Both the position numbers and the translations under genes were made by a program. Shown here piece after piece: positions 33,101 to 52,607 of a stretch of 64,000 bases of DNA; the first letter of the stretch is position 1, and the number at the start of each line of letters is the position of its first letter. Under the pieces are notes generated by a model. The model saw only the letters and a list, made by a program, of their open reading frames with translations, was not told the origin of the DNA and did no database searches. This DNA comes from Mortierella sp. BCC40632. Taxonomy: Eukaryota; Mortierellomycota; Mortierellomycetes; Mortierellales; Mortierellaceae. The stretch spans positions 117,001 through 181,000 of the forward strand of contig WAEK01000007.1 of assembly GCA_011634665.1 (NCBI GenBank). The letters are read 5' to 3'.

Positions 33101-35460
33101 TGATGCTGCTGCTGCTGGCGATTCGAAAAGGATGGCAGCGAAGACCGGACTCCACCTGCAATGCTAAGGCTCTCGCAGCCATAACCTTCCCAACCATGCG
33201 TTTATCCTGGAAACGTAACCACGCTGTCGATACCTGCTCTTCCTCGACCACATCCTGGATGTGCCGGAGACCATAGAAACGCCTGTGCTGTAGGATACTG
33301 TTGGGCGTTCCTTTTTCGCTAGACCCAGCTTCTGTCGGATCATGGACGTGTATTTCCCCGCCCACCTTGTTGATACTGAGTCTGGCGCCACCATTATCGT
33401 CATTCGGTATAGGATTCTCGGGATCAGCACGTTGTTGACAATGTATACTGCTTGCTTGTCCGTTATCGCTTTCCGGGACAGGATGTTACACGTTGTGTTG
33501 ATTTCCTCGAGGACCATATTCCTGGTGAAACGGTCGTTACCGTCAGCCGAAAACCACACACCCAGCATCCTAACGGCGACGTCGGGCGGGTGAGCTTTCA
33601 CGGTGTCAGCGCTAATCTGGATCTCTTGCTGGTCCGTTGTTGGGTTCACTATGATCAGCTCTGATTTCTTCGGGTTAATATCGATGGAGTTCAAACGGAA
33701 AAAACCAGTGGCGATGTCGGTGATCCCCTGGAGCCCTTCCTTATCTGGTGCAATCCATGTCGTGTCGTCCATGTACGCCAGACAAGGGACAACTAGCGCA
33801 GTGTCCTCCCCTTGCTGTAGGTAGTACGGGATGGGGAGTTGTCGATGCTCGAATAAAGCCTTTTTACTCATCATCGCGTATCCGAGTCCAGACTCCATGA
33901 CTGCATTCAGTAGAACGTCGTAGACTATTCTCCACATAAGTGGACATTCCACTCCACCTTGATCCAAACCACAGCGCGGGTGATATTCATCCGTTATCCC
34001 ATACGCCGTGATGACCCTGTTGGTTTTGGTTGTCGCAATGTCCAGGCTTAAGCGGATGAATCTTGGATCCATCTTAATGCAACGTAGGCTCCGATCCAGC
34101 ATCCCGTCAGGTCCACATGAGACCGAGTCGTAACATCGGCGCATGTCCTGAAAGAGAACCCATGCTTCCTTGTTGAATTCTCGGGCATCCTCCATCACCG
34201 CGTTGAGTATGTGGATCGGGTCTTTGGTCATCGTCCCCTTTTAAAACGGAGAAGTTGGGTCCTTTTTGAGTACGTTGTGTTGCTCGCAGACTGCTGTGAT
34301 CCTGTTCACTAAGATTGTGAACATGATCTTCCTCGCGTGTTCCAGTAGAGTGATCGGCCGTACGTCTGCTAAACGCCCTGACCATACCTGGCGTTTCGGG
34401 ATACAATAGATGAGGCCTTGTTTCCACTGTGTTGGCACTGTTTCTTGAGCAAAGCATGCTTGGACTAAGATCGCGAATACCTTTTGATCCTCTTTTACCG
34501 AGCTTTTGAAACATGTCCCCTGTAACACCTGACAGTCCTGGCGCCTTGTGATGTGGTGCGTGTGCTACCGCGACAGCGATCTCTTCTTCTGTCGGAATTG
34601 CCATCGTCTCCTGGAACCAGGTTTCATCAATGTCATTCCTAGGACGATACCTTTCTTCCCAAAAAGGATTATCGCTGAGTGATTGGCATGTTCTGGGGGC
34701 GTGCCACTCATCCTTGAAGTAACGAAAAACCTCTTTCCTGATTTCCTGCGGGTGGTCAAGAACATACGGTTTGTCGTTGTTGTCGTCCACGATGACGTGA
34801 TCTATCACGACGCTGTTCTGCGGTGCTTCAAGTATGCTGCGTATCGACCTCTTCGTGTCCGTGGCAAACTTTTCATTCCTCCGTTCTATCGCCTCCTTGA
34901 CGTAGCGGTGGAAATGTTTTTTGTTGTAGTCACGGTGAAGCATCCTGTTCTCTCGCCAGGCCGCCTGGATTTCCCTCAACCAACCATTCCAACACTCCTC
35001 CCCGTCCTCCACACTTGGGATTTGGTTGATGTTCATCTCCAGCTTGTTCGCTTCATACCAGTTCTTGATAGGGGTAAAGGTTTGATGCTTCAACTCCTCC
35101 TGACAGTCGTCTGATAGAAAATGCATCCGAACAGCTTTGATAACTCTTCCAAGATCACTTGTCTTTGCCCTCCATCGCGCCTCTCCCGGTTGTACACCTG
35201 GCAGACCACCGGTCTTAACAACCGGCAGATGTCTTTTTGCAGCTGACATGATTGTCTTCTGAAGCGTATCCCAGAGATCTTCCAGCGCGATTTGTTCCAG
35301 CGATTCACCTGTGAATTCTACTTCTTCAGGGTTGTCCTCCGTTGTTGTAATTCCAAACCGCTCCAGATGTCCATATTCGATGAGAGCTTCTTCGGCCTGT
35401 TCTTGAAACTCGTCCCAATGTGTCTTCTTTGCCTTGGCTGTCAACACTTTCTTTGTACGA
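30154..35460 (-). pseudogene. LINE C ORF2 fragment: reverse transcriptase, linker, RNase H, CCHC
   Basis: The upstream palm/fingers (34107-35460) carry APHHKAPGLSG and RPITLLEHARK. The palm (33164-34231) carries FQDMRRCYDSV, GLDQGGVECPLMWR and YMDDTTW, so the YxDD motif is intact. A linker of about 300 residues (about 32000-32950) has an acidic-then-basic stretch and a coiled coil. RNase H (31081-31814) shows HTDGSL, STKAEL, LDNEGV and VWVRGHSDNQGN. The C-terminal knuckle CRMCAAETEDNDHVWEC lies near 30880-30930. Frame breaks occur near 34240, 33020, 32030, 31400 and 31090. It lacks the endonuclease by 5' truncation. Confidence 0.85.
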
Positions 35461-35624
35461 CCCAGATCGCGGTAGATGGGAAAGGTGAGGATGCCTCTCG
35501 CCACCCTTGGGTGGGGGGGGAGGTTGGGGACTAGGTCGATCCACCAATCCGAAAAAGGAGATGAGACTATCCAATATGGAGAAAATTACCAAAAGAGGAA
35601 TTTTTGGCCACGAATCCATGAATT

Positions 35625-35707
35625 GGAGAGATGGCCGAGTTGGTCTAAGGCGCCACGTTAAGGCCGTGGTCTATTCGTAGGCGTGGGTTCGAATCCCACT
35701 CTCTTCA
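35625..35707 (+). tRNA. tRNA-Leu (AAG anticodon)
   Basis: An 83-base class II tRNA. The acceptor arms GGAGAGA and TCTCTTC pair over 7 bp (one G-U). The D arm has the A-box-like TGGCCGAGTTGG. The anticodon stem CCACG/CGTGG carries the loop TTAAGGC with AAG at positions 34-36. A long variable arm follows, then the T arm GTGGGTTCGAATCCCAC. No intron is seen. A T run near 35725-35732 can end Pol III transcription. LINE A inserted 98 bp upstream. Confidence 0.93.
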
Positions 35708-44165: not shown

Positions 44166-44238
44166 GCTCGTTTAGCTTAGTCGGTAGAGCGTCGTGCTAA
44201 TAACGCGAAGGTCGCAGGTTCGATCCCTGCAATGAGCA
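44166..44238 (+). tRNA. tRNA-Ile (AAT anticodon)
   Basis: A 73-base tRNA. The acceptor arms GCTCGTT and AATGAGC pair over 7 bp with discriminator A. The D arm contains TAGCTTAGTCGGTAGAGC, the anticodon loop CTAATAA carries AAT, and the T arm GCAGGTTCGATCCCTGC is canonical. A T run at 44261-44270 provides a terminator. The MULE target duplication begins 66 bp downstream. Confidence 0.95.
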
Positions 44239-44303
44239 GCTTCTTTTTGCCTTTCTCATATTTTTTTTTTGAAAAAATTTATTTCACATATATCCCGATT
44301 ATC

Positions 44304-44313
44304 GCGGGTTGAG
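44304..44313. repeat. 10-bp target-site duplication of the MULE (partner 51999-52008)
   Basis: GCGGGTTGAG is identical at 44304-44313 and 51999-52008, exactly outside the two terminal inverted repeats and in direct orientation. Mutator-like elements make 8-11 bp duplications, so size and position fit. Confidence 0.93.
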
Positions 44314-44441
44314 GGACAAAGCTAAACTTCGGGACTCCCGAACGTTAGTTATCGTTCGGGACTGTCATTTTGCCACTTAAAATTCGGGACCCACAACCTC
44401 TTAAAATTCGGGATTGCGGTCGCTTAAAATTCGGGCTGCCA
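44314..44441 (+). repeat. Left terminal inverted repeat of the MULE
   Basis: Pairs with 51871-51998 with one substitution near the tip and two single-base indels. It contains an 8-bp stem (CCCGAACG at 44337-44344 and CGTTCGGG at 44353-44360) and TAAAATTCGGG boxes at about 44378, 44402, 44424 and (just inside) 44447, spaced 22-24 bp, about two helical turns. These look like transposase-binding sites; that role is inferred. Confidence 0.92.
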
Positions 44442-44771: not shown

Positions 44772-46403
44772 ATGACCGCTATCGAGATCAACGAGTCTGC
44801 CCCCTGTTAGGGGCTTATGACTACCAGAAGCTGTATGGCATGTCAGCAAAGATCTTCTATTCCAAGAAGTGGGCTCCTGGTCGACAGTCGTTCCAAGTGG
44901 CTCTGCTTGATTCAACCACTGTCGATCCTGCCGACGTTATGACAGACACGGCGATAAAGGATGCACCCACCATCCCGGACAACCTCGCAGTCAACAAGGC
45001 CTACATGCTACTCGGGGAAACGCAGAACAGAGCGCACCTCAAGTTCGCTTGCTTTTTGGTACTGTCGATGTCGCTGGGCTTGCAGCGTTACAACGCGCCA
45101 ATCATGCTCTGACACCATCGAAGAAATGCAAGCCCTGATTGCTTGGCTCAAGAACAACCAAGAGAACCCTAGAACTGGCAAATTTTGTCGTCAGCTTTTG
45201 GAATTAATCCCAAAAAAAACCCAATGTCGTTCAGGTTCACTTCGTTTTACAAGCATTCCAAGAGCCTCACGATGCACCAAGTTTCATTTTTCCGCCCAGG
45301 GTGTGGCTCGGAGACGAGCAGATCGATACCATCCTCCACACCCTGGAAAAAAAGCACGAGGGTACAAGCAAGTCCAAGTTCCTCATTCTGCCGCTAGAAC
45401 TAGTACGAGCCCATGTCGACGCTATTGAGTGCAAGAGATCTGTAACCGTTGCCTGGGAAGAAGATCGCCGCAAGGTTATGCTCGACTTGCAAGACTATGC
45501 GGATGCCAACCCGGGCTGTAGTGCCAAGGCGTTCACAGTTCTAAACACTGTTAACCATTGGGCCGTTTTCGGTTTTGACCTTGCGCTCAAGAGACTTCTT
45601 TTCGGTGATTCATTGGACCGTGGACGCCTCCGCCGTGCGCGCCCAAGCTGGCTCGATGCTGCAAGACACTTGCTTCAATCCTGCTGCATTGGAGATCGAC
45701 GCATCCGCTCCGAAGAGTGGAATTTTGAACCGGTTAGATTCCCAGTCTCGCAACAAACCGATAGCAGCTCTTGCGGCATTATAGCGCTTAATGCTATTGA
45801 GCACTACGTGCAACCGTCAGTAGAGCGATGGACACAAAAGCGAAGCGACTTCCATCGACTGAAGTACTTAATGTACGCAACATCAGTCTACCGCCCAGTA
45901 AGTTTTTTGCTAGCAACCATTCACAAATTCATCCCCCTATGTCTGCAAAATAATAAAAAAAAAAAAAAAAAGTCTCCATACGCCAGATGCTGACACAAAA
46001 TGGATTCTGTAGGCTACTTTCATCAAAAGTACCCCCCAGGGAAAAGTCACGCCCAAGAATAAGGACTCGGTCACCGAGGAGTCTCATGAAAAAGAAGAAC
46101 TTGTCGAGAAGAGCAAAGTTAAAGGGGAAAAATTAAACACTGGAGAAGAGGCCGCCGAAGAAGAACGCCAAGAGGTGCGTGAGGATGAACTCAGCACTTC
46201 CGAAAAGTCGCTTGAAAAGGAGGAAAGAATAGCCAAGAGTGATAAAGCAAGCGCTGTAGAGGAGACCATCGAAGAGGAACGTCAAGAGACGAATGACGAT
46301 CGATCCAAATCTGACTCGGAGTATTCCGAGTCAGAACATGGCAACACAGAGACGCATGATACTCTCGCGAAGGTAGGCACTGTTTTTTTTTTAATTCGCG
46401 TTT

Positions 46404-46448
<45 letters not shown>

Positions 46449-48433
46449 AGAAAGCTCAGGGCCAATGATCGACAGGACAACAGAGCATGTTAGTCTTAGT
46501 TCAAAGCTTCTTACCTTCAACTGATCTCTTCCACAAAATAGGACGGAATAAATGGTGACGAGGAGTATCCGTGGATAAACGATCAGTTCGTTGACATTGA
46601 CCATGCTCTTAAAGTCATTGGTGAATGGGCACTCAAGCGAGGCAACATACTTCGCAAAGGGAGCTCTAAGAGGTCTTTAAATTACAGTATGTCGACTTCT
46701 GGTACTCGCTGCAGGGTGTGTGGATCAATTGCCGTGGACTAATGCAACCTCTTGCTCCCTTCTCTCCAGGGCAACTTGAATGTTCTAGGGCAGGGAAATG
46801 TGCTCCTGCGAAGGCTATCGACCCCAGAAAGCGACGCGACAGAGGATCCGAACGATGTGGTTGCAAGTTTATGATCCAGCTGGTTCACGAAGGCTCGTTC
46901 ACAGGGCCACTCTCTGTTGACAAGGTCAGGACTCACCCTGACGCCAGGCCAGAGGATGATGGCCATTGCCATCCTTCGGATCGACAAGCAAACGATCACA
47001 GCCGACAGGCACGGGCACTGAACGATGACCACAAAGATGAGATTCGGCGAAATGCAACTAACAAAGCAGGCATGGCTGCAACCATGAATGCTCTCAAAAG
47101 AACTTTTTCCTGACAAAGTTTTCGATCGCAAAAGGGTTCAATACGTGTACAGAAATGCTTGTGATGAGATATTGGATCAGGTTCGAACTCAAGCTGGGCT
47201 CAACGAGGCTCAAGCCGTCCTTGAACTGTTACTCGCAAAGCGGCGGCAAGATGGTGCGTGGTATGTCGCATGGGATCATGATAACGAGAACCGACTAACC
47301 CGGCTCTTCTGGATGAGTCCTTCACAGAGACTATTGTACCGAAGGTATGTGTTAGCAGTGTATCAGTACCGGGTTCTCATCGAACATTCGACACCGTGCT
47401 AGAGCCATGTAAAAATTTTCGAATCGAATATTCGACGAGAAACAATTATTTCAGTACCAATAGAGCATTTTACATTTTGCAAAGACGGAATCTAATACGT
47501 TCATAATTCATCACACATACACACACTCAAGATACTACGATGTTGTTTGGAATGACAGCACCTTCAATTCAAACCGGTTCAGGTTCTACCTTAACGCTAC
47601 CGTCGTCGTTGACTGTGATGGCAAAACCCGCCTAACAGCTGTTGCTTTTAATCCAGCAAGAAACGACTGAGAGCTATACTTGGATCCTCGAACACCTCAT
47701 TATTGCAGGCAACAACCAACGCCCAACGGTTATCATGGTCGACGAAGCTAGAGCTATGGAAGCCGCCATTTTGTCAGAGTTGCCCGATACTACTCTCATC
47801 AATTGCCTCTGGCATATTGAAGAGAATCTCAAGAAACATTGTCCAAGGGGCTCGGCGACCAGAAGTGATGAAGATGTTCAGGAGAGCGCTAGCAAGTATT
47901 ACTCCTGACGAGTTTCAAGGTGCATGGGACCTTTTGAAGAACCTGGCTGGAAGCAGTGGCCAACTTAAGGATCACCTCAAGAGGCTTCTCGAGAGACGCA
48001 AGAACTGGGCACGCGCTTTTGTGGGTTACCACTTTACAGCCGGCGCCAAGACTACACAGAGGGTGGAGAAGATGCACGACCTCGTGAAAAAAGACCTTGA
48101 TACTAGATCCTCATTAGACCAGTGTCTTGCTGCGGCTGTCGAACGTGAACACAGTGAGTTCCTCAGGCGTGAGACGCTCCTGTACAAAAGGAGTATTATC
48201 CCAAGGCTACACTCCAAACACGCTGCTGAAGAATTTAAGGCAGTAGTTGATGAGAACTTTGAGTTCCTCGGAGATTTTGCCTGCTTCTCAATGATGGACG
48301 AGATCGCACTGTCCTACTTCTATGATGCGCGAGTTACTGATCTTGAAAGTCTTGAGGTAACGATTGGACATTTAATCTCAAAATCAAAAATGAGTACCAT
48401 TCTGGAGTCTAAAAAGTCTAACTTTATATTATT

Positions 48434-48470
<37 letters not shown>

Positions 48471-49530
48471 ATCGTCCAGTTGAGCTAGAGGAGCACAAGA
48501 AAGGTAGTACTGACAGTGAAATCACTGGGAACAGCGACAATGATGACAACAGTCTTGACAGCAGCGACAACGATGACAACAGTCTTGACAGCAGAGACAA
48601 CGATAACAGCAGTCTTGACAGCAGCGACAATGATGAGAGCAGCCTTTACAACAACGACAATGATGGCAGCAGTCTTAAAAGCAACGGCAGTGATGACGGC
48701 AGTCTTGACACCAGCGGCAAGAACAAAGACGATGGAGGCGCCAACTGCAACAAGAATAACGATTGCGAGAGCGATGAGGAAGATCATGGAGCATGTGACA
48801 AGTCCTCTCAACAGCTCCGTGAGCATGCACAGAGGGTTATCCTAGCTACTCTAGGCAGAGATAATGTCACGTCTGCCTATCATGTTGAGTGGCGCAAGAA
48901 AAAAGTCGACAGCAGCTCCTCTTCCTTTTGAAAGATGGGAGCTACTTCTGTTGCTGTCTGCGCCTTCAGAAGGTTGGGATTGTCTGTCGCCACTTTTTCA
49001 AGGTCATGAGAGAGACTCCTGAGGCGAGGTACCATGTCAGTCTTCTTCCTCAGAGGTGGTTTAAGGAGGATATGCAGAGTGACTCGATCGACCACCTCAG
49101 AGACCGCTCGTTTATCGGTTATGATGACGAGCAAGGCGATAGAGAGGATGCTGGGGAACCAGGCGCCAACTTTATGCAATGTCTGGAAAATATTTCGCCG
49201 ACAAAGATCCAGGATATCTCAATGAGAAACCTGGAGCAAGTCAAGGATGAAAGCAGGCGCCATTTATTGAAGCGCCAGGCCAACGCATTCATAGACGGAA
49301 TAGACACGGTGTCTGCGGGTGATTCTGAGATGGTCTCCGGGTGGATTTCTGGGTTGGAAGACAAGTACGATGCACACAAGCGCGGTGTCGTGCCTGTGAA
49401 AGACCCAAAAATTGCTACACCCAAAGTAGGAGGTCGGCCACGCTCTAAGAGACTTAAGTCAGTGTATGAGGTCCAGAGCGAACGGGCAGCCAGAAAAAAT
49501 AGAAGAGATAGTCCTGATCAAGAAGCTTAA
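44772..49530 (+). CDS. Fused Ulp1 (C48) protease and MULE transposase
   Basis: A spliced reading that joins a SUMO-protease domain to a transposase. The C48 domain (about 45200-45897) has WLGDEQID, catalytic His in NHWAVFGFD, Asp in GDSLD, Gln in PVSQQ and Cys in SSSCGIIALN. The donor GTAAGT at 45898 and acceptor at 46012 join it in phase 0 to an acidic Glu/Lys linker (46013-46372), then exon 46542 onward. There a Cys/His region (LECSRAGK, RCGCKF, HCHPSDR) resembles WRKY/GCM1-type fingers. The transposase core (47088-48355) has Asp in WNDSTFNSNRF, Glu in QQETTESYTW, Asp in VMVDEARAM and CLWHIEENL. An Asp/Ser repeat linker (48520-48690) precedes the SWIM finger (CCLRLQKVG, VCRHFF). Frame changes at about 44810, 45115, 45213, 46690, 47096, 47650, 47838 and 48900 mostly fall on A/T runs, so the gene may be intact in the organism. 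Confidence 0.8.
48524..48690 (+). repeat. 27-30 bp tandem repeats in the transposase linker
   Basis: Five to six imperfect copies of a unit encoding about SSDNDDNSLD, keeping the reading frame. The result is a flexible acidic spacer between the transposase core and the SWIM finger. Repeat number probably varies between copies. Confidence 0.75.
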
Positions 49531-49950: not shown

Positions 49951-50035
49951 TTCGATGATGGGTCCAGCTTCCACGCTGCTTCACTCTAGACACGCATGGG
50001 CCGCCCTTCCCAGACCTTTTTTTACGTTCTTGGCG

Positions 50036-50540
50036 CATTCAATGCTTCAATGCGGCCTTGTTGTTTTTTCCGCATTCAATGCTTCAATGCGGCCTTGTTC
50101 TTTTCCGCATTCAATGCTTCAATGCGGCCTTGTTCTTTCCGCATTCAATGCGACTTTTGTGCTTCACGCATTCAATGCTTCAATGCGGCCTTGTTCTTTC
50201 CGCATTCAATGCTTCAATGCGACCCTTGCTCCTCCCGTATTCAATGTCTCAATGCGACCCATGCCCCTATTCAATGTGGTTTTATGCTTCCCGCATTCAA
50301 TGTCTCAATGCGACCCATGCCCCTATTCAATGTGGTTTTATGCTTCCCGCATTCAATGTCTCAATGCGACCCATGCCCCTATTCAATGTGGTTTTTATGC
50401 TTCCCGCATTCAATGCCTCAATGTGGCTTTTTGTGCTTCCCGTATTCAATGTCTCAATGCGAGGTTGCCCCTATTCAATGCTTCAATGTGGTTTTTTTTC
50501 TTCCCGCACTCAATGCCTCAATACAGCACATACTCCTCCC
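50036..50540 (+). repeat. Minisatellite of hairpin-forming units inside the MULE
   Basis: About 13 units of 31-57 bp built on CGCATTCAATGCTTCAATGC followed by a pyrimidine-rich spacer. Within a unit CGCATT and AATGCG can pair around a 9-base loop. Three central units share a longer form containing CCCATGCCCC and TATTCAATGTGG. Units are phased irregularly. Long open frames across it are repeat translations and not protein. It sits just upstream of the second MULE gene. Confidence 0.85.
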
Positions 50541-50748
50541 ATCTCATCAGTCTTTCTTAAGTCGAAGGCTTAAATACAAGATATTCAGCTCCTTGGTTCA
50601 CTACACACACTCACTCACTCACATTCTCTTTTTTTTTCACACACTCTCTCCCCCAACTTATCTCTCGCCCTTCCTCTACTTCTCTTTTCTCTCTCAAAAT
50701 ATGCCAAAGGTCTCCCAGTGCTCCTTTCATAAATGTGCAAAAATCTAA

Positions 50749-51660
50749 ATGATGATAACAGGGAGAACTTTTTGTACTTCTGAGGAATCTCATTGGAGAG
50801 CATGCCACACCAATGAACCAGCCAAGTTCCTTTGTCCCTTTTACGAATAAGACAGTTGAAATCCATCGAAATTCGGAGAAAGACTACAAGTTCACCTGCG
50901 TGTGCGAAAAATCATTTATCCTTAACGCAGGGTCTGTAAGGCGTCACTATGAATCTTGTACAGTAGCCAAACGGCTGGCTCTCCAGGCTGCTTCAACAGT
51001 TCCAGATACACAGGCTGCTCTTGCAACCCCAGAAACACAGGTTGCACCAGCAGCGGCCCAGCCTCACCAAGCATCCAGCGAACTTCCAAGCCCATCTCAG
51101 GCTCAAGATAAGAGTCCTTCCCGAGAGACAAGTCCTGCAGCGATATCGTCACCAGGGACCATTGTTTTCCGGGATGGTATTCTTGACTGCTTCCTTAATA
51201 AATGCTGAGAATGAGAATAACTCAATTATTGCACTGGAAGGTAGATACTAACAATAATCTACTTTAGGTGTTACGGAAACTTTAGATGATGTTCTGTGGT
51301 ATGTCCGCCGAATGGACGAAAGACAAGAGCGAATAGAGGACTACCAGTTGTATTTGGGGCGTACTTTGGAACAATTAGTTGGATTTGTGAAAGGGAACCC
51401 AGCAGGCGCAAGTCCACGGACGCCTTGTGAGTTAACCATTTCGTCCATCATAGTGCAATCAGGATGAGTGTTGACCATTAGGCTAATGTGCTACTTTCTA
51501 GTAAGTCTCGTTCATAATTATAGGCGTCCTACACCATATCCGGCCCCACCGAAGGCAAGCGGTAGTGAAACAACAAGAAGATAGGGAACAGCTGAGATAT
51601 TTAAACAAGTGTAAAAAAAAAAAAAAAAAAAAACAACAACAACAACACTGTGAAGAATAA
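50749..51660 (+). CDS. Second MULE gene: zinc-binding and helical protein, function unknown
   Basis: Three exons: about 50749-51176, 51268-51426 and 51524-51660 (an alternative third exon starts at 51502 and stops at 51584). Intron 1 has donor GTATTC, a perfect TACTAAC branch site and acceptor TTTAG, which supports a real gene. The N-terminal part has Cys/His clusters (FCTSEESHWRACH, FLCPF) and a finger FTCVCEKSF...RRHYESC with C.C...H...C spacing. An Ala/Gln/Pro-rich middle and a charged helix (LWYVRRMDERQERIEDYQLY) follow, then a basic, Lys- or Gln-rich tail. The finger and the upstream cluster are in different frames unless one T is removed from a T4 at about 50838; the open frame without that change starts at 50813. 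A 15-codon frame at 50701 ends at an in-frame TAA. I do not recognise the family. A DNA-binding accessory factor for transposition is a guess. Confidence 0.6.
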
Positions 51661-51870: not shown

Positions 51871-51998
51871 TGGCCAGCCCGAATTTTAAGCGACCGCAAT
51901 CCCGAATTTTAAGAGGTTGTGGGTCCCGAATTTTAAGTGGCAAATGACAGTCCCGAACGATAACTAACGTTCGGGAGTCCCGAAGTTTAGCTTTATCC
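51871..51998 (-). repeat. Right terminal inverted repeat of the MULE
   Basis: Inverse of 44314-44441, ending GCTTTATCC. It carries the same stem and three CCCGAATTTTA boxes plus one further inward at 51855-51866. The second duplication copy GCGGGTTGAG follows at 51999. Confidence 0.92.
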
Positions 51999-52008
51999 GC
52001 GGGTTGAG

Positions 52009-52607
52009 TGCCTCAACTTGCGATCTTTTTGAAATCATCTGGTAGGAAAGATCGCTCGACGCCTCCTGACGATTTTCTAGGGGATGGGGCCTTGGGTTTG
52101 TGCGTCAGGAGTCCAAAGACCAAATTTCTTTTCTTTTCTATGGCCCCGTTAGGGGTTTTATTCGTCGGCGCGCTTCCGCCTCACGATCTGCGGACGTGGC
52201 CAACTAGCTCTCAAAGCTACACTACCCTACAACAAAAGAATAGAGAGTAGAAAGAAAAGTCGGTTGAAGCCAGACCTCAGAGAGGCATGTGGGGAAGCAG
52301 ACGAGACGGTGTTGGCGTATGTCTTAGGAAAGAAAAGAGTTGGACGTAATGGAGATATATTAGGGAGCTAGAAAAAAAGTATTAGCGATGGACTCAGGCT
52401 CATAGACGACGAATGAGCGCAACGGAGCCACGTAGAGAGAGCTGGCGTTACGACCACTCATGCGTACGTGGGTGATGGCTGTTGAGTGTCTGGAGGCTGT
52501 TTAGATAGTTTTCATTCGCGGGTACAATCCCGTTTTGGTACCAAGTAGCAACAGGGCAGCCGGAGCCGCTCTAGTCTTCTATAAACTCTATATGCCCACG
52601 TAGGGTC

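Follow-up and report, generated by a model that had tools for sequence, protein, structure and literature searches.

We found that a 7,685-bp transposon in the window (the whole 64,000-bp stretch of DNA analysed, G000:C7:117001-181000 of the 49.9-Mb genome of Mortierella sp. BCC40632) belongs to a family of Mutator-like elements (MULEs) found a short way 3' of tRNA genes. From its reading frames, splicing of its main gene is predicted to yield a protein that carries a SUMO-protease-like domain (Ulp1, peptidase C48) at its N-terminus together with a MULE transposase. We consider it probable that the copies occupy these positions because the transposase complex is guided there by bound RNA polymerase III (Pol III) machinery, and insertions are likely steered to fairly harmless sites by the apparatus that transcribes tRNA genes.

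A search with the left inverted repeat returned at least 40 matches. The set of elements with both ends comprised 19, nine of them full-length and ten short (0.62-0.74 kb; the right end of one short element, M2, is approximate, its last bases being absent). A facing tRNA gene was present at 37-101 bp from 17 of the 19 (9/9 full-length and 8/10 short; mean 65.6 bp, median 63), with its 3' end toward the element in all 17, so that a fixed side and a narrow distance were kept across genes of many isotypes. Full copies with the tRNA on the left were beside Ile, Val, Thr, Ala and Cys genes, while the four lacking a left tRNA had one on the right (Ser, Val, Glu, Ala); copy F7 had an additional tRNA past the first on the same side. 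Short copies were found beside Asn, Gly, Arg, Met, Pro, Tyr and Ala genes and one gene called as a selenocysteine tRNA with an intron, the identity of which is doubtful. Two elements known from one end, on C5 (Ile) and C2 (Arg), had a tRNA at 55 and 48 bp. At the second end a tRNA was found in 0/17 cases, some of these flanks being only ~0.4 kb long. Seen from the other side, the 182 kb examined contain 21 distinct tRNA genes (one doubly called gene counted once), and 19 of them neighbour an element. The probability of 17/19 was 4e-44 if 1,589 tRNA genes are assumed, for a distance band set after the data had been seen; this number is that of first-look tRNA candidates genome-wide, of which 63 were scored. 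The tRNA gene as a part of the element itself was rejected because the isotypes differ and the gene lies outside the target duplication.

MULEs make target site duplications of 8-11 bp. Among 18 elements we found duplications of 10 bp in 15 and of 9 bp in two, both within this range, and none in one. Most of these sequences were unrelated (14/17 without a common 6-mer). The pattern resembles the way in which some retrotransposons are directed by position to Pol III genes; Ty1, for example, reportedly inserts near such genes. The variable distance, the single side, the many isotypes and the mostly unrelated target sequences suggest a protein address, as in dictyostelid elements beside tRNA genes (PMC5006619). 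The same pattern is seen in the short elements, which have no room for the gene, and the address is therefore probably supplied in trans. We infer that the tRNA bias arises at integration and not through later selection. In the proposed mechanism, the transposase complex would be held by Pol III factors at the tRNA gene, contact with Pol III, TFIIIB or TFIIIC supplying the address, and insertion would occur into the DNA just past the Pol III terminator; the SUMO protease brought with the transposase could bind or clear SUMO marks on the Pol III machinery.

The interval singled out by the sequence-only reading turned out to be the interior of a transposon bounded by near-perfect inverted ends (44314-44438 and 51875-51998), which are long terminal inverted repeats (TIRs) of the TIR-MULE kind, with the identical ten bases GCGGGTTGAG on both sides. 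PF10551 (MULE) matched the window exon with E 1.5e-11 and the joined reading with 67.7 bits (E 1.3e-18; cut-off 27.6), the joined reading being a composite of two copies used as a search query only. The joined reading also matched PF21056 and PF00872, and PF03101 (FAR1) remained under its cut-off. The D, D and CxxH motifs of a MULE-type DDE domain were present in 11/13 copies, the third acidic residue not being located. The CxC..CxH motif of exon 6, which gave no Pfam match, is presumably SWIM-like. In a protein database search the sole match of the joined reading was P0001, a protein of FAR1/MULE type for which no C48 domain is listed, and a scan of viral contigs gave no relative of the element. 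When the genome was searched with the C48 open reading frame (ORF), eleven further near-identical copies and one diverged copy on C24 were found. Among eight full copies, substitutions amount to 0.39-1.05% across ~7.1 kb (gene part mean 0.43%), and therefore the family is young and has spread recently. One full copy, L025 (C12:640429-654992), is 14.6 kb long through an insertion. The ORFs of this insertion resemble a retroelement polyprotein by eye.

A complete Ulp1 catalytic set and a GTAAGT donor at the end of the C48 exon had been read from the letters alone, and both were confirmed in the sequence. We take the assignment of the catalytic His, Asp, Gln and Cys to follow the Ulp1 pattern. 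His, Gln and Cys were invariant in ten aligned proteins and Asp was kept in 9/10, so that C48 activity is probably under selection. The set was accompanied by an Ulp1 fold, in the best of five models only, and the two together fit a peptidase C48. Fold comparison was used because a PDB sequence search with the C48 part gave no protease match; a structure model of the relative P0003 was discarded (predicted local distance difference test, pLDDT, 53.7). The window C48 ORF alone scored 21 for PF02902, with a cut-off of 20.7. The substrate of the domain would be SUMO or a protein like it, and Pol III factors at the target are its most plausible carriers. The sequence-only reading had tentatively suggested that the domain could desumoylate host silencing or repair factors; the insertion pattern, which lies outside the interval of that reading and was not noticed in it, speaks instead for the Pol III machinery at tRNA genes.

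Protease and targeting may plausibly be connected. We give even weight to the possibility that C48 is a passenger or serves elsewhere (self-processing, anti-silencing, another ubiquitin-like substrate), targeting coming from another part such as the Cys/His-rich protein of a candidate second gene, for which no Pfam match was found with the one ORF tested. NEDD8 and ubiquitin proteases among the C48 fold matches favour another role, as does the report that KIU-carrying Vandals induce hypomethylation of related elements (PMC13317346), while the invariant catalytic residues argue against a passenger; the evidence here does not separate the roles. That the fused protease is a homing device, recognising SUMO at tRNA genes and stripping it from Pol III or from factors of Pol III, we regard as unlikely; were it true, a DNA transposon would reach harmless sites via a protein modification mark and not a DNA sequence. 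When Pol III is defective in yeast, sumoylation of Rpc53 sets off a SUMO-ubiquitin-Cdc48 pathway by which Pol III is repressed (PMC6128692). In that work a Pol III mutant was rescued by loss of the SUMO protease ulp2, a finding at odds with a simple model in which the protease frees Pol III (PMC6128692).

Exon limits were set from open frames and GT..AG ends and then looked up in other copies, and we infer that the transcript is spliced as drawn in Table 1. Eight relatives of exon 1 were found, the named sources of close proteins being Mortierella sp. AD032, Mortierella sp. 14UC and Haplosporangium gracile. In all six unspliced-looking ORF relatives (P0002-P0007) the frame passes through R-E/R-P into a Val codon (GT) at the donor position and stops soon after. 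NCBI models vary at this junction: P0008 ends there, P0009 goes on with AAFD, and P0010 (H. gracile) continues with ATFIM, then the linker and then the MULE region, the window splice giving ATFIK. BLASTP aligned P0010 with the joined reading from C48 through the junction into the MULE region (29% identity, 920 columns). Across the genome, a MULE match lay 1.7-2.0 kb 3' of C48 on the same strand at 10/12 distant C48 loci, the exceptions being C5:1169579 and C4:2579160. The conserved donor codon, the junction common to P0010 and the kept order at the distant loci support the earlier proposal of a single spliced gene for C48 and the transposase.

Two adjacent genes, a C48 gene ending soon after 45898 and a transposase gene starting from the ATG at 46000, have only a small chance of being the true arrangement. 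The frame from this ATG enters the linker in copy L029 and, by eye, also in others with a shorter base run, and plant Kaonashi/KIU shares its MULE group with two other coding genes (PMC13317346). Two genes would nevertheless leave an intergenic space of only ~100 bp, and they sit poorly with a GT at the identical codon in 6/6 unspliced relatives, with an annotated protein that crosses the junction and with the order and strand kept at the distant loci.

Several results weigh against the fused gene as drawn. The drawn acceptor was in register in 8/12 copies and shifted in 4/12, and in at least one shifted copy the frame from the ATG at 46000 is open, which would permit a separate downstream gene. 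P0010, an annotated model, gave no PF02902 match and its PF10551 score of 23.7 was under the cut-off; it has Glu replacing the Gly after Cys, and it lacks stretches of the joined reading, the first DDE aspartate included. A profile search of the joined reading, put forward earlier as a check on both domains, recovered the transposase at the score given above but C48 only below its cut-off (PF02902 17.4, under 20.7), and only one of the five C48 structure models was good. The window copy is broken in four of its exons, most other copies likewise have frame breaks, and in three copies breaks occur between the motifs. Long ORFs elsewhere in the window reach 948 and 985 aa, and hence either the element has decayed, in which case many copies may be dead, or its repeats were poorly polished.

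Guidance by the Pol III machinery likewise has observations to contend with. Short elements M3 and M6 had no tRNA within 1.5 kb, and five one-sided ends (C10, C11, C35, C2:2145519, C7:398536) had no adjacent tRNA in the available flank; in the partial copies on C10 and C11 a facing tRNA occurred at 2.5 and 3.6 kb and was left out of the count. Three of the 17 target duplications (F4, M4, M9) have common 6-mers and C leads at position 1 in 9/15, and some sequence preference in target choice is possible. What the transposase recognises might be a DNA motif on the 3' side of tRNA genes, such as the T run of the terminator, instead of the Pol III machinery. A run of at least four T begins no more than 13 bases from the tRNA in 19/19 stretches, with the insertion past the run, as against 8.6% of random window positions, though any Pol III gene would have one. 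T runs also occur at many other places in the window, and the shared 6-mers are confined to the three duplications named while the distance spreads over 64 bp; we find motif reading distinctly improbable. That elements inserted without targeting and selection spared only those next to tRNA genes is very improbable, for although tRNA-gene flanks are regarded as safe sites in compact genomes (PMC5006619), the copies, at ~0.4% substitutions, lie only at 37-101 bp, on the 3' side and always facing, and selection is unlikely to have produced so narrow a band so fast.

Ulp1 in Mutator elements is already known from plants, hydra and lancelet (PMC2836005, PMC13317346), and the targeting is the surprising part. 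The idea that it is peculiar to Kaonashi elements of plants is not supported as stated, since Mutator transposons of hydra and lancelet carry Ulp1 too (PMC2836005). Kaonashi/KIU MULEs of the Vandal group are likewise Mutator-like elements with an Ulp1/C48 domain, but they are non-TIR elements with Ulp1 in a gene of its own, one of three (PMC13317346), whereas the window family has TIRs and a predicted N-terminal fusion and is fungal and tRNA-adjacent. The hydra and lancelet Mutators, likened here by description only, and Ginger1 are further cases of a DDE transposon protein with an Ulp1 domain (PMC2836005). In Ginger1 the integrase is of the Gypsy type and the Ulp1 or OTU domain is C-terminal, and tRNA targeting is not described in the accessible text (PMC2836005); our element differs in its MULE domain and N-terminal protease, and the joined reading gave no integrase match.

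Dada DNA transposons likewise use tRNA genes as targets (PMC3706591). They insert within the RNA gene (tRNA or snRNA), with 6-7-bp duplications and family-specific target genes (PMC3706591), while the window family inserts outside the gene at a variable distance, beside any isotype, with a 9-10 bp duplication. Two dictyostelid retrotransposons also lie downstream of tRNA genes, TRE3 at ~100 bp and Skipper-2 at 7-136 bp (PMC5006619); this family differs from them as a DDE-transposase MULE. Hop, a fungal MULE like Mutyl, carries TIRs of 99 bp and makes a 9-bp duplication, and for neither of the two does the accessible text mention a C48 domain or a tRNA link (PMC5014426). Maize Mu insertions near rRNA/tRNA genes resemble random loci (PMC7337890). 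In the literature searched, which mostly excluded subscription papers, we found no tRNA-gene-targeted MULE and no Ulp1-fused fungal MULE. A DDE-transposase MULE with this 3'-side, many-isotype habit would be a separate invention. Such a system would let one ask which parts of the Pol III machinery a transposase contacts, and with the protease fused to it the reason why Ulp1 domains occur in transposons becomes testable.

Table 1. Features of the element and its left flank (window coordinates; exons and intron are predicted)
Feature	Position	Strand	Remarks
Host tRNA-Ile(AAT) gene, 3' end toward element, 75 bp off	44166..44238	+	Rfam 67.9 bits; ARAGORN
T5 run, Pol III terminator-like, separates tRNA from element	44244..44248	+	T run of at least 4 in 19/19 such stretches
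Target site duplication, left copy GCGGGTTGAG	44304..44313	.	
Left terminal inverted repeat	44314..44438	+	98-100% complementary to 51875-51998
Exon 1: N-terminal region and Ulp1/C48 domain	44772..45897	+	PF02902; frame broken in window copy, fully open in C11 copy (L026)
C48 domain, single open frame	45298..45897	+	His codon 45556-45558, Asp 45607-45609, Gln 45754-45756, Cys 45772-45774
Predicted intron 1, phase 0 (GTAAGT ... CTGAC branch-like ... TAG)	45898..46012	+	Junction conserved in relatives
Exon 2: ATFI start and acidic linker	46013..46372	+	Start identical in P0010
Exon 3	46542..46686	+	
Exon 4: FAR1-like DNA-binding region (PF03101, under cut-off)	46770..47344	+	Frame broken in window copy
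Exon 5: MULE DDE transposase domain (PF10551)	47532..48356	+	Frame broken in window copy
Exon 6: acidic repeats, CxC..CxH motif, C-terminus	48470..49530	+	Frame broken in window copy
Minisatellite-like repeats inside element, unit ~34 bp by eye	50026..50540	.	Self matches
Candidate second gene, Cys/His-rich motif (CVCEKSF...RRHYESC)	50701..51560	+	
Right terminal inverted repeat	51875..51998	-	
Target site duplication, right copy	51999..52008	.	

Other sequences were noted around the insertions. The repeat CCCCGTTAGGGGTTTTATTCGTCGGCGCGC and its variants recur in the flanks of several of them (window 52145-52175, L044 and L048, with variants in L043 and L040). A second tRNA gene of the window (35625-35707) lies ~40 bp from opposite-strand ORFs (34107-35585) that are retrotransposon-like by eye, and the element beside this gene adjoins its 5' side. 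Finally, two diverged C48-MULE loci, C11:276118-280511 and C4:307019-311437, each have a facing tRNA at nearly equal distance from where C48 starts (4,321 and 4,346 bp), which hints at tRNA-gene targeting by a second, diverged C48-MULE subfamily as well.

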